A stretch of DNA of 25,525 bases. Source: a virus. The stretch covers positions 1-25,525 of IMG/VR virus record IMGVR_UViG_3300025769_000754; one strand, 5' to 3'. Made by a program: the position numbers and the translations under genes. Under the pieces are notes generated by a model. It saw only the letters and a list, made by a program, of their open reading frames with translations, was not told where the DNA came from and made no database searches. Of this stretch, positions 20,901 through 24,386 are shown piece by piece (within the stretch, counting starts at the first letter, position 1; each line of letters starts with the position of its first letter).

Positions 20901-22044
20901 ATGCTTCTTCACCTTCTAAAGTTGCAACAGGTCTACCTGTACTATCTTTTATTGTATATATGTTACCACTATCTGTACCAGAAACTTTTGATGAAAAAGT
21001 AAAAGAACCGTCTGGTGTATTTAATACAATAGGAGAACGGCTAATTTTTTCAACTTCTTTTTTAACAACACTACCATCTATATTTCTTTGAATACCTTGA
21101 TCATCAAAGTATGTACTGTAGTCTGGTTCTTCATCTTCTACTGGTTGTACAAGTTGTTTATAATAATCATCTGTTTCTTTTTGAAATGCTTTATATGCAG
21201 GATTATTTTGTAATTGTTGACCTAATGCTTCAGCACCTTTAAAATCTTTTGCTGCTACTAAAGCATCTATTTTAGATTGAAAATCAGGTATAAAATTATC
21301 GGGATTACCTTTTTCTCCAAACTGTTTTTGCATAGCATCATTAATGCGTTTTTGTTCAGCTATTTGTTCTGGGGTAGGTTTGTATCCCATGTTAATAGGA
21401 TCAAGATCGGGTTTTTCAAATACTTCTTGTCCTGTAGTGTCTTTTGTTTCTTTAGCTTTTGCACCTGCAAGTGTGTCAACGCGGCGTTGTTCTTTTTGTT
21501 GTGCTGCCATTTGTTCAGGTGTAACTTGTGTAGCTTGAAGTCTAGGATCAACTAAACCTGTTGCAGCTTGTTCTGTTAATTGAGTATCCGTTACTTGTTG
21601 ATCGGTTGCTGCTGGCCCTAAACTAGCTTGATAGGTAGCACTTTGAGGATTGCCTGTTCCCATTTTCATTGCATTTTGATTAGCTTGATTAAATTTATTC
21701 ATATCAGATAATTGACCTGAACCAGAAGCAGATACTGTGCTTGCAGATGTAGTTGCATCAGGTCGTGTCTGACTAAAAGTAGGAACTAAACTACCATCAC
21801 TCTTTCTTAATCTACCTTCTTGATCAAAGTATTGTGAATAGTCAACATCACCACCATTAGCAAAGTTTTGCACCATGCCACCATTAACCATCTGAAGGGC
21901 TTTCTGTTGATACATACCCATCTGTTGCATCTTGTCAGGATTTTGATTTAAGTATTGATTAAACCCCTGCATATCTCCTTGATACCCTAGAGTACCAGCA
22001 ATACGTTGCATAGCTTCAGGTTTAAATCCTTTGAATTGTTTCAT
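17965..22044 (-). CDS. Giant repeat-rich virion protein, 1359 aa
   Basis: The longest gene in the window. Residues 1-60 are Gln/Met-rich with GGMVQNFANGG, a motif I associate with marine phage structural proteins. A DYSxYFDxxGxxRxxDGSxV motif occurs twice (near residues 68 and 305). Residues about 480-790 are charged and helical. Residues 931-1172 form eleven exact 22-residue repeats, and 1179-1244 six 11-residue QFN repeats, predicting a long hendecad helical rod. The C-terminus is Ala/Gly-rich and ends in a short hydrophobic segment. No enzyme motif is seen. Position and architecture suggest an internal core/ejection protein or a rod in the tail; a tape-measure-like role is possible. It starts at a TAATG junction. 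Confidence 0.7.
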   Translation of the reverse strand: MKQFKGFKPEAMQRIAGTLGYQGDMQGFNQYLNQNPDKMQQMGMYQQKALQMVNGGMVQNFANGGDVDYSQYFDQEGRLRKSDGSLVPTFSQTRPDATTSASTVSASGSGQLSDMNKFNQANQNAMKMGTGNPQSATYQASLGPAATDQQVTDTQLTEQAATGLVDPRLQATQVTPEQMAAQQKEQRRVDTLAGAKAKETKDTTGQEVFEKPDLDPINMGYKPTPEQIAEQKRINDAMQKQFGEKGNPDNFIPDFQSKIDALVAAKDFKGAEALGQQLQNNPAYKAFQKETDDYYKQLVQPVEDEEPDYSTYFDDQGIQRNIDGSVVKKEVEKISRSPIVLNTPDGSFTFSSKVSGTDSGNIYTIKDSTGRPVATLEGEEAFRKWAIDNNASAYDPTKGAPEKVNTDEMLEGLSWANHSQKGIDMLLESGKLPSDEMFIKTTNPDGTESLTPDPSKYTVSGGEENWIFTFEDGTSTVVNRYDLKKAKKTLADEITPVISKLKESGFEEKTKTFKSNQDSYRKYITDESEKGVTTDIENIEEEYNKTVKNIESKKLEVSRLTALAKKDPDTTLLDDEGKPKLDEDGNEIRVNSYYQELLDKKVEELADDMERQADLAPVYQSTQRTVKDLTKERFQDPASAITEEAGTKVIADKIDVQPDQFIEKGTGQLDSVAQGDTTAAKAFDADAPDTVSEQTYDGREITDTAEEKLKKLEAQTQDTLTREVVGQKGDLRYDSKADESLKVAEDRILKAINPTDLEVTANQLAEVKGKDLKAIEASISVSDRLKKIVAQTRTVDPKELPPPATISDNIMRSVQAIKETDAGLSQETTEYIAAKAEAFTVSSGTLAVAMQGDVTAQATVQGQLSELMKSFDNGTPAWAAGAMRTANAVMLSRGMGNSSMAAAAIVQAAMESAIPIATQDAQTYAKMNLTNLDNQQKVSLANAAAQQGLSLQNLSNEQQMNLQNSAQAFDLQKVNLSNRQSVELANSQIRATLQGKVLDNTQQSNIVTAARYAEQANINLSNKQQAVLQDNVGALQTNLADAGAKQQSYITSANLASALQGQVLTNDQQVAISKAARYSDAANLNFTSDQQEILHNSSLMQSIGLAELNTTEAATLQNAANFASLDIAELSNAQQAQVLNAQNFLQLDLANLSNEQQVAIFKAQAIQQTLLSDQASANASEQFNATSEMQVDQFNANLKTQVEQFNKAQQTAISQFNAGQDNAMEQFNVAQANAADQFNAQNELVIAQSNVTWRREVATADTAAQNRANEINAKNTLDIQNQAYDNMWQHYGDQMSNAYNSAESEAGRASSYAIAQLSASAEANKAAATRNAGNAKSLGNLAATILTGDLSGGILKGLF
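18313..18510 (-). repeat. Six 33-bp units encoding 11-residue QFN repeats
   Basis: Six consecutive 11-residue units (residues 1179-1244 of the 1359-aa protein) each carry QFN at the same place, such as VDQFNA, VEQFNK, ISQFNA and MEQFNV. A degenerate seventh with QSN follows (18280-18312). The unit is exactly half of the 22-residue repeat upstream. Confidence 0.92.
18529..19254 (-). repeat. Eleven 66-bp units encoding gapless 22-residue repeats
   Basis: Eleven consecutive units of exactly 66 bases (residues 931-1172 of the 1359-aa protein). The consensus starts NLSNxQQ, followed by a hydrophobic, a few variable, then an Ala/Gln-rich half ending in a hydrophobic. Units differ widely in sequence but none has an insertion or deletion, showing selection on repeat length. 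Confidence 0.92.
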
Positions 22045-22505
22045 TATCTAGTTCCTATCCATACCAAGCCAAACAAACTACCAGTACAAACTATAAATAA
22101 AAGTATACCTGCACTCCATTCTATTATAGATTGTTTAATTTCCATTTGTTTGTGCTCATGTTCTTTTTTTTGTTTTCTTATTTCTGCTTCTATTTTTAAT
22201 AATTCATCCCAATGTGAAGGACCGTACATAACACAGATGTAATCTTTTAGTTCCTTACGCATAGCTTCAGCTTTTTTCTTAGCTGCAAATATTTCCATTG
22301 CTTCTGCTTGAACGCCACCACCAAGAGTTTTATACCAAGGTGGTTTTTGAATTTGTCTATCGGCAAAGTCTAAATCAGATATACATCCAGCCCATTTAGT
22401 GAGTTGTGTTCCCATATCTTGTAAGTCTTTGCCTACTTGTATGCCTTTTTTAAGAGCATTAAAAGCGGCAGTAGCACCTGCAATAGCGGTAATTGGATCT
22501 ATCAT
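22044..22505 (-). CDS. Membrane-anchored protein with C-terminal TM segment, 153 aa
   Basis: Begins with a weakly hydrophobic Ala-rich stretch (MIDPITAIAGATAAFNALKKG), continues with a charged helical region (EAEIRKQKKEHEHKQMEIKQ) and ends with one clear membrane segment (about 130-149, AGILLFIVCTGSLFGLVWIG). I recall similar proteins in marine podoviruses but know no function. It sits next to another one-segment membrane protein, so a lysis or virion-membrane role is plausible. The stop forms TAATG with the 1359-aa gene. Confidence 0.7.
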   Translation of the reverse strand: MIDPITAIAGATAAFNALKKGIQVGKDLQDMGTQLTKWAGCISDLDFADRQIQKPPWYKTLGGGVQAEAMEIFAAKKKAEAMRKELKDYICVMYGPSHWDELLKIEAEIRKQKKEHEHKQMEIKQSIIEWSAGILLFIVCTGSLFGLVWIGTR

Positions 22506-22525: not shown

Positions 22526-22789
22526 TTAATCTTTAGTTGCCATCTTTTCTACAGAAGTACGAATAGCTTTTATGTTTTCATCTATCCTAGCCATAGATAC
22601 AGCCTGTCCATGTACAGCATCTTCCATACGGCCTAACCTCTGTTGTACCTCTATAATCTTAGAAGCATTAACCTCTATGTCAGAAGTCATTGTACTTACA
22701 GTCCAAACAATAGCGGCACCTTGTACAAATAATCCAAAGATTAATGTCAATGGTACAGATTTACTCAAGTGCCAGTTATCGTTAGCCAT
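22526..22789 (-). CDS. Small TM/coiled-coil protein, possible holin or XhlA-like
   Basis: 87-aa protein starting MANDNWHLSKSVPL, with one membrane segment (TLIFGLFVQGAAIVWTV, about residues 14-30) and a heptad-like helix after it (IEVQQRLGRMEDAV ... ARIDENIKAIRTSVEK). This layout matches XhlA-type and other phage lysis accessory proteins; it could also be a spanin-like or structural anchor. The ATG at 22789 has GGAG 10 bases upstream and is preferred over ATG at 22798 (too close) and GTG at 22888 (inside the ParB-like gene). The start overlaps the previous stop by 8 bases. Confidence 0.65.
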   Translation of the reverse strand: MANDNWHLSKSVPLTLIFGLFVQGAAIVWTVSTMTSDIEVNASKIIEVQQRLGRMEDAVHGQAVSMARIDENIKAIRTSVEKMATKD

Positions 22790-23219
22790 TGTTGTCATTC
22801 TCCATTTGTAACTTTTGAGGATCGTACTCTTGATAATCAGAAGGTATGACCTCAAAACACTCAGGGTAGGCTTCTGCACGTACTGCACTAATACCCGATT
22901 TAAAAAACTTACTAAGGTCTTTTACTGTAATTATTACACCTTGTGGGTTATTAAATGTATCTTCTTTGCAACAAACAATACAAGAAACTGTATCAATGTT
23001 TAACTCTTGTAAAGCTGCTAGGCACTGGTTGCCCCTGTTGACCCTGTATGTACCGTCTTGTTTTACATTACCACAACATAAAGGGTTGTTTAGTCCTTCT
23101 TTAAGTATAGACTCTTTTATTTTTTCTCTTGCATAAACATATCTAGTTTCATTTAAATTACGCGATACGCCAAAGTATAAATTATTAACAGGTATGTCAG
23201 CATAAATTAAAATATTAAT
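22782..23219 (-). CDS. ParB-like domain protein with apparent ATT start
   Basis: 145-codon open frame between the 113-aa and 87-aa genes, reading INILIYADIPVNNLYFG onward. The middle resembles the ParB N-terminal fold: REKIKESILKEGLNNPL, then a GTYRVNRGNQCLAALQEL box and a closing strand DTVSCIV; GNQCLAAL corresponds to the usual Gx(Q/R)RxxAx. Seven or so Cys are present, several in CC or CxxCC groups. No ATG, GTG or TTG exists in this frame before the domain. The best start is ATT at 23219, sharing its A with the previous TAA stop, exactly like the TAATG junctions elsewhere. ParB-fold phage proteins can be nucleases or CTPases; function here is unknown. Confidence 0.7.
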   Translation of the reverse strand: MNILIYADIPVNNLYFGVSRNLNETRYVYAREKIKESILKEGLNNPLCCGNVKQDGTYRVNRGNQCLAALQELNIDTVSCIVCCKEDTFNNPQGVIITVKDLSKFFKSGISAVRAEAYPECFEVIPSDYQEYDPQKLQMENDNNG

Positions 23220-23560
23220 TACCCATTAAGTGTGTCTAAATCATTCCATACTCTAGTGGCATGGGCTGCTGCATCAAAGGTAACATCATTACCATCGCTG
23301 TCTTGATCTTTCCAACCATTAGCATTAGCAGAGTTTGTTAGGTATGTCTGTAAGTCAGACTTGCTACTAATCTCAGCTATAGCACCTGATATGTCTGCAC
23401 CATCATCAGCTATACCTACCATAATCCAATCTTGAGGGCTTGCTGTATCAGCATCAGGTACAGGATACATACCACCTGTACCTTGAGGTACACCAAACTT
23501 TAACCATGTAGGTATTGTACCATTTGATTCTAGTCTATACTTTACTACTTTATACGCCAT
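23219..23560 (-). CDS. Hypothetical virion-operon protein, 113 aa
   Basis: Opens MAYKVVKYRLESNGTIPTWL, a beta strand and Gly/Pro-rich loop typical of small tail-associated proteins, and continues with an acidic region DSDGNDVTFDAAAHATRVWN. GAGG lies 9 bases before the ATG, which overlaps the end of the 278-aa gene by 11 bases. The stop is the TAA used in the TAATT junction with the ParB-like gene. Function unknown; position near the fibre gene suggests a tail or virion accessory part. Confidence 0.7.
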   Translation of the reverse strand: MAYKVVKYRLESNGTIPTWLKFGVPQGTGGMYPVPDADTASPQDWIMVGIADDGADISGAIAEISSKSDLQTYLTNSANANGWKDQDSDGNDVTFDAAAHATRVWNDLDTLNG

Positions 23561-24386
23561 TACTTTTGTCCTCTATCTGTGGTGTGTTAGCTAATGACGT
23601 AGGGTCAAACACATCAAACCCTCTACTGTTAGCAAACGCTGCAGGACACCCTGCCCATTTATCTGCACAACCCTCAAGCCACTGCACTGTATGCTTATGC
23701 TCTGGAGCTTTGCCTTGTTTAACTAATTCATTCTCCCAGTTAAGGTATGAGAATACTTCTGCTTGAGCTTGGGCTGCATTAATACCTAAGTCAAATAAAT
23801 AGATCATGTTACCTTCGTCAATAATACCGTTACGTGGTCTTGCACTATTTAATGCTTGTTTCATGCAAGTCATAATGTGGTAACGTGCTTCTTCTAGTTC
23901 GTAGTCTTCCTCACTTAATTCTTCTTTACCTATCTTCTTCATCAGGTTGTCATACTGATTAGTAAAAAAATTCATCTTACGTACAGCACCTTGTACTGCG
24001 TTACGTGTGCCTTCTAAGTGACCTTGTATCTCTAGTATTTCTATCTCTAATAACTCACGAGCAAGAGGTTCACGACAGTCTACCAGTTTAGCTTGCTTCT
24101 TCTTTAGCTTTACTTCTTTCTTACGTAGGTTTATGTAAGCCTCTTGTAGAGCACTACGTGTTTTGTCTATCTCAGCCAGTGTGTGCTTAATGCTACGTAT
24201 GGGTGTGATAGCTGTTACGTCTAGTGTAACTCCCATAAACTGACTGTGTGACTTGTGGAAGTTGCTGGTAGCCTGTGTGACTGCTGGCATCTTCTTAGCA
24301 ATGTTAGTAAGCATAGACTTATACTCAGGGGCAGCAGTAGGTAGTGCTTCATTTAGTGTAGTAGTGATAGCTAATTCTGTAGACAT
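23550..24386 (-). CDS. Coiled-coil hypothetical protein, 278 aa
   Basis: First gene after the predicted promoter. Residues about 75-155 form a long charged coiled coil (NLRKKEVKLKKKQAKL and ELLEIEILEIQGHLEGTR). The C-terminal third has several Cys and Trp (CADKWAGCPAAF) in a compact part. No enzymatic motif is recognised. CGGAG about 10 bases before the ATG supports the start. It may be a virion assembly, chaperone or scaffold-type factor; this is conjecture from the helix content and neighbours. Confidence 0.7.
   Translation of the reverse strand: MSTELAITTTLNEALPTAAPEYKSMLTNIAKKMPAVTQATSNFHKSHSQFMGVTLDVTAITPIRSIKHTLAEIDKTRSALQEAYINLRKKEVKLKKKQAKLVDCREPLARELLEIEILEIQGHLEGTRNAVQGAVRKMNFFTNQYDNLMKKIGKEELSEEDYELEEARYHIMTCMKQALNSARPRNGIIDEGNMIYLFDLGINAAQAQAEVFSYLNWENELVKQGKAPEHKHTVQWLEGCADKWAGCPAAFANSRGFDVFDPTSLANTPQIEDKSNGV

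Follow-up and report, generated by a model that had tools for sequence, protein, structure and literature searches.

An ATT in place of ATG at the start of an accessory ParB-fold phage gene, possibly a recent start loss, and apparent ATA and ATC starts in homologues of a nearby gene

The window, the whole 25,525-nt stretch of DNA analysed, from a marine bacterial virus, carries on its minus strand a gene for a protein of ParB/sulfiredoxin fold lodged between two small genes, with a member of phrog_32327 beyond them (Table 1). Translation shows no stop in its frame between TGG at 23225 and the terminal TAA at 22784-22782. Read in this shifted frame, the junction with the upstream gene gives a stop, TGG, GTA, ATT, AAT, ATT and onwards to TAA, and the upstream gene itself ends with AAT GGG TAA. 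At the junction, GGGTAATTAAT, the stop codon of the upstream gene shares its final A with the ATT (TAATT). The sequence-only reading had described this overlap, as well as TAATG at four other junctions (the 6781, 7863, 16105 and 22044 regions), and both are borne out by the sequence. It was also right that the frame lacks ATG, GTG and TTG until its last residues: a codon-by-codon list contains neither these codons nor CTG between the ATT and the first ATG, which is codon 139 (22805). CTG or another in-frame start was rejected as a candidate on the same list. The first nine codons include, among potential starts, three ATT and one ATA.

Table 1. Positions of the genes and of the altered start codon in the window
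Feature	Position	Strand	Remarks
153-aa gene (phrog_32327)	22044..22505	-	ATG start in the window
Downstream 87-aa gene	22526..22789	-	8-nt overlap with the 3' end of the ParB-fold gene
ParB/sulfiredoxin-fold accessory gene	22782..23219	-	145 codons plus TAA; first usable codon is ATT
ATT where relatives L001 and L065 have their ATG start	23217..23219	-	
Upstream 113-aa gene	23219..23560	-	terminates with TAA at 23221-23219

The ParB-fold frame is open beyond chance expectation, since none of 20,000 base shuffles keeps it open. Compared with its nearest relative, substitutions at the three codon positions number 11, 7 and 25, and this third-position excess, together with an excess of synonymous changes (Fisher p ~7e-5), suggests that the frame was translated during most of its recent history. 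On these patterns we regard it as a real coding frame.

At the level of fold the label ParB-like holds. The protein matches phrog_3951, of unknown function (1.6e-6), and phrog_723, which is ParB-like (2.4e-6), so that PHROG support stands at E ~2e-6, and with Pfam ParB_N it scores 15 bits, below the cut-off of 26.3 bits. An AlphaFold model built from three sequences has a pLDDT of 68, which is moderate confidence, and a fold search with it places structures of ParB, Noc, free serine kinase (SerK), SbnI and sulfiredoxin at the top. The C-terminal part is modelled with low confidence. As modelled, the 145-residue protein is a single ParB/Srx-fold domain followed by a short tail. It shares this ParB_N/sulfiredoxin fold over ~80 residues with phrog_3951 and with the phage ParB-like partition proteins (phrog_723, phrog_620 and phrog_4715). 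Unlike the partition proteins, it reads RGNQCLAA in place of the GERRxRA motif of ParB and Noc; the aligned stretch NRGNQCLAAL, opposite AGERRWRAVQ of Noc (7ol9), lacks a nucleotide-binding motif of GERR type. No second domain, whether a helix-turn-helix for DNA binding or a C-terminal dimerisation domain, is recognised in the Pfam or PHROG matches of its 145 residues, and none of the ten proteins scanned in this 25.5-kb fragment contains a ParA-like domain. The window protein is ParB-like in fold and lacks the features of a partition ParB.

The identity of the start codon was approached through the junction in related phages, a comparison that the sequence-only reading had itself proposed. 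In a survey of 68 IMG/VR loci found with the upstream gene, in which the bases 3' of its stop were read, the ParB-fold gene occurs at the junction in only two other contigs, L001 (86% identical) and L065 (40% identical). In both, the exact position of the window ATT is taken by ATG, as TAATG, behind the same upstream gene, the junctions being GGATAATGAGTATTTTAATTTATG in L001 and GGATAATGAATTATT in L065, and an outgroup comparison of the start residue gives isoleucine for the window and methionine for both relatives. The presence of ATG at the same base in two relatives argues that the start position is right, that ATG is most likely ancestral at this junction and that ATT is a change private to this contig. 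The direction of the change is drawn from two relatives, a sample in which conservation of ATT is poorly represented. The earlier suggestion that an ATG had been destroyed, by a G-to-T change or by an error, gains support from this alignment. A non-ATG start is not conserved among the ParB-fold homologues, both relatives starting with ATG. Repeated IMG/VR profile scans returned only L001 and L065 as relatives, GTDB genome contigs yielded none and an exact search for the junction pattern retrieved only the contig of L001; among INPHARED phages the window protein matched nothing, and the L065 protein gave only weak matches to methyltransferase genes. The flanking genes keep conventional starts, with ATG in 54 of 54 homologues of the upstream gene, and, for the 87-aa gene, with ATG or GTG no more than two codons from the aligned start in all but one of 68.

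The frame is already open two codons ahead of the ATT and so shares the last bases of the upstream gene, which could indicate that it is read as a fusion, through a frameshift in the upstream gene or through a frameshift from an out-of-frame ATG 16 nt downstream. This is highly improbable. The overlap comprises just TGG-GTA and contains no slippery heptamer, and the downstream ATG opens a frame of only 16 codons. Relatives fused to or frameshifted from the upstream gene, which had been named in advance as evidence against an ATT start, were not seen; L001 and L065 each have a separate ATG, and for this reason and the lack of a slippery site a frameshift fusion with the upstream gene was rejected.

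Divergence from L001 differs sharply between the ParB-fold gene and its surroundings. For the ParB-fold gene dS is 0.28 and dN 0.074 (dN/dS 0.27), and for the upstream 113-aa gene dS is 0.51, against 2.8 (23553-24386), 1.2 (22529-22789) and 1.8 (22047-22505) for the outer genes. The low dS of the pair relative to its flanks suggests that it was exchanged by recombination far more recently than the flanks diverged. Contigs L004-L006, with 96-97% identity to the window across ~1 kb downstream, are without the ParB-fold gene, and their upstream gene is joined directly to the next gene. By these genome comparisons the ParB-fold gene is accessory, its absence being compatible with a viable phage lineage, and its dN/dS points to maintenance under purifying selection in the past. 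Across the contigs read, the slot between the 113-aa and 87-aa genes is variable: it may be empty or hold a ParB-fold gene, or the upstream gene may have quite different genes after it. In many contigs the upstream gene directly adjoins the 87-aa gene, and others carry different genes there. Within the 3' end of the ParB-fold gene lies a Shine-Dalgarno sequence belonging to the 87-aa gene, GGAGA with a spacing of 9; loss of ParB-fold expression would thus not have to shut off the gene after it. Relatives of the 87-aa gene are encoded in 595 IMG/VR stretches; its product contains a single hydrophobic stretch and gives weak matches to coiled coils, and neither Pfam nor PHROGs assigns it a function.

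We favour, with a probability of about one half, a recent loss of the start codon in a dispensable, exchanged cassette rather than a start codon maintained by selection. A horizontally exchanged ParB-fold cassette would have lodged between two late genes, with an ancestral start at the ATG of TAATG that was presumably used by ribosomes finishing the upstream gene. A change of G to T at this start, present in no relative, would then have left the ParB-fold protein most likely at a very low level or absent, and the loss would have arisen recently in the phage population. With L065 as outgroup, the replacements private to the window copy, leaving the start aside, number 2, and those private to the ATG copy of L001 number 5. 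The absence of a replacement excess in the ATT copy suggests that the change is recent, is an error or is tolerated, and in combination with the dN/dS of 0.27 it tells against an old pseudogene. No strong, well-spaced Shine-Dalgarno sequence lies upstream of the ATT, the best candidate being TGGGTA (-3.8 kcal/mol), which abuts the ATT with a spacing of 0. The ATG of L001 likewise lacks a good Shine-Dalgarno sequence, so its absence before the ATT is not specific. Counting against start loss, a fully intact frame is equally predicted by a functional ATT. If start loss is correct, expression of an accessory phage gene may be lost through a single substitution that leaves the reading frame untouched, and caution is warranted because gene-calling programs will miss or shorten genes of this sort.

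The T could instead have entered the start codon, in place of G, through faulty sequencing or assembly of this single contig, an explanation that is somewhat unlikely yet has an appreciable chance of being true. ATT is found in one contig only, the sequence comes from a viral contig of a metagenome and both known relatives have ATG. Against an error, the second codon also differs between the window and L001 (AAT versus AGT), as in ordinary divergence. Assembled contigs seldom contain single-base errors, and such an error would be rarer still in a start codon.

ATT starts have been experimentally established in E. coli for infC and pcnB, and AUU limits infC. The sequence-only reading had offered a real ATT start driven by termination-reinitiation that keeps ParB expression low. 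In such a scheme, ribosomes that finish at the TAA would move back by a single base and restart at AUU, and the amount of ParB-fold protein would be kept low by design, as with infC. The intact frame, the past purifying selection and the lack of excess replacements in the ATT copy are consistent with this proposal, as is the existence of conserved ATA/ATC starts in a nearby-gene homologue of other phages, described below. The one-base overlap of stop and start, which the window retains in the same geometry as the TAATG of L001 and L065, is suited to termination-reinitiation (PMC10666635). Set against these points, both relatives have ATG and none has ATT; a usable Shine-Dalgarno sequence is lacking, unlike at the ATA/ATC starts of the nearby-gene homologues and at the AUU/AUA starts of S. 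aureus (PMC13009471); and ATT initiates in E. coli at ~0.3% of the efficiency of ATG, according to the portion of Hecht 2017 quoted in PMC10666635. On balance a functional ATT is unlikely. While the known overlapping TAATG/ATGA pairs have an equal one-base overlap (PMC10666635), the window start is ATT, weak and not conserved. With infC, pcnB and cvfC1 (PMC13009471) the window shares AUU as the putative initiator of an intact frame. In cvfC1 of S. aureus, however, the AUU start is conserved and has a strong extended Shine-Dalgarno sequence (PMC13009471), whereas the window ATT is unique to one contig. The narrower claim, that the ATT is a working AUU start which depends solely on reinitiation and so holds down the output of a phage ParB-fold protein, is distinctly unlikely; if true, such a start would be of a rare kind.

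Homologues of the nearby 153-aa gene provide a more interesting lead than the ParB-fold ATT, and they show which features mark a credible non-canonical start in this neighbourhood of phage genes. In another group of marine phage contigs, homologues L156, L157 (on the contig of L040), L158 and L159 (each at position 1501) read GGAGATAGAACA-ATA-GACCCT, the leader of L157 being AGGAGATAGAACA-ATA, and a further homologue, L170:1501, reads TAAGGAGAAATAAA-ATC-GACCCT. In three of the four ATA contigs no in-frame ATG, GTG or TTG lies upstream of the ATA. Relatives that are ~60% identical (L160-L166 and L169) have ATG at the position of the ATA. Apart from the near-identical pair L156 and L157, the ATA copies differ from one another with dS of 0.35-0.99 and dN of 0.07-0.08 (dN/dS ~0.08-0.2), which argues for purifying selection on the gene while the ATA persists. 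Comparison of L157 with L158 or L159 shows detectable nucleotide similarity only from ~13 nt before the ATA, at the Shine-Dalgarno sequence, and the sequences differ farther upstream. The ATA homologue still matches phrog_32327 (5e-10). Its Shine-Dalgarno sequence has a predicted energy of -8.7 kcal/mol and a spacing of 7, and a strong one precedes the ATC as well. These starts therefore combine conservation with a strong, well-spaced Shine-Dalgarno sequence, in contrast to the ParB-fold gene, which has neither. From its pattern across contigs, the AUA/AUC start of the phrog_32327 homologues looks real and selected. Literature with partial full-text coverage yielded no report of phage starts of this kind, a slender hint that ATA/ATC phage starts may be novel. 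A search for the ATN-GACCC pattern also yielded a match with ATT, a 241-codon frame (L187:6634-7359) in which ATT-GAC-CCT lies behind AGGAG and an ATG stands at codon 6. This frame was set aside, since its homology is not clear and that ATG is present; it may represent another ATT start or may simply begin at codon 6.
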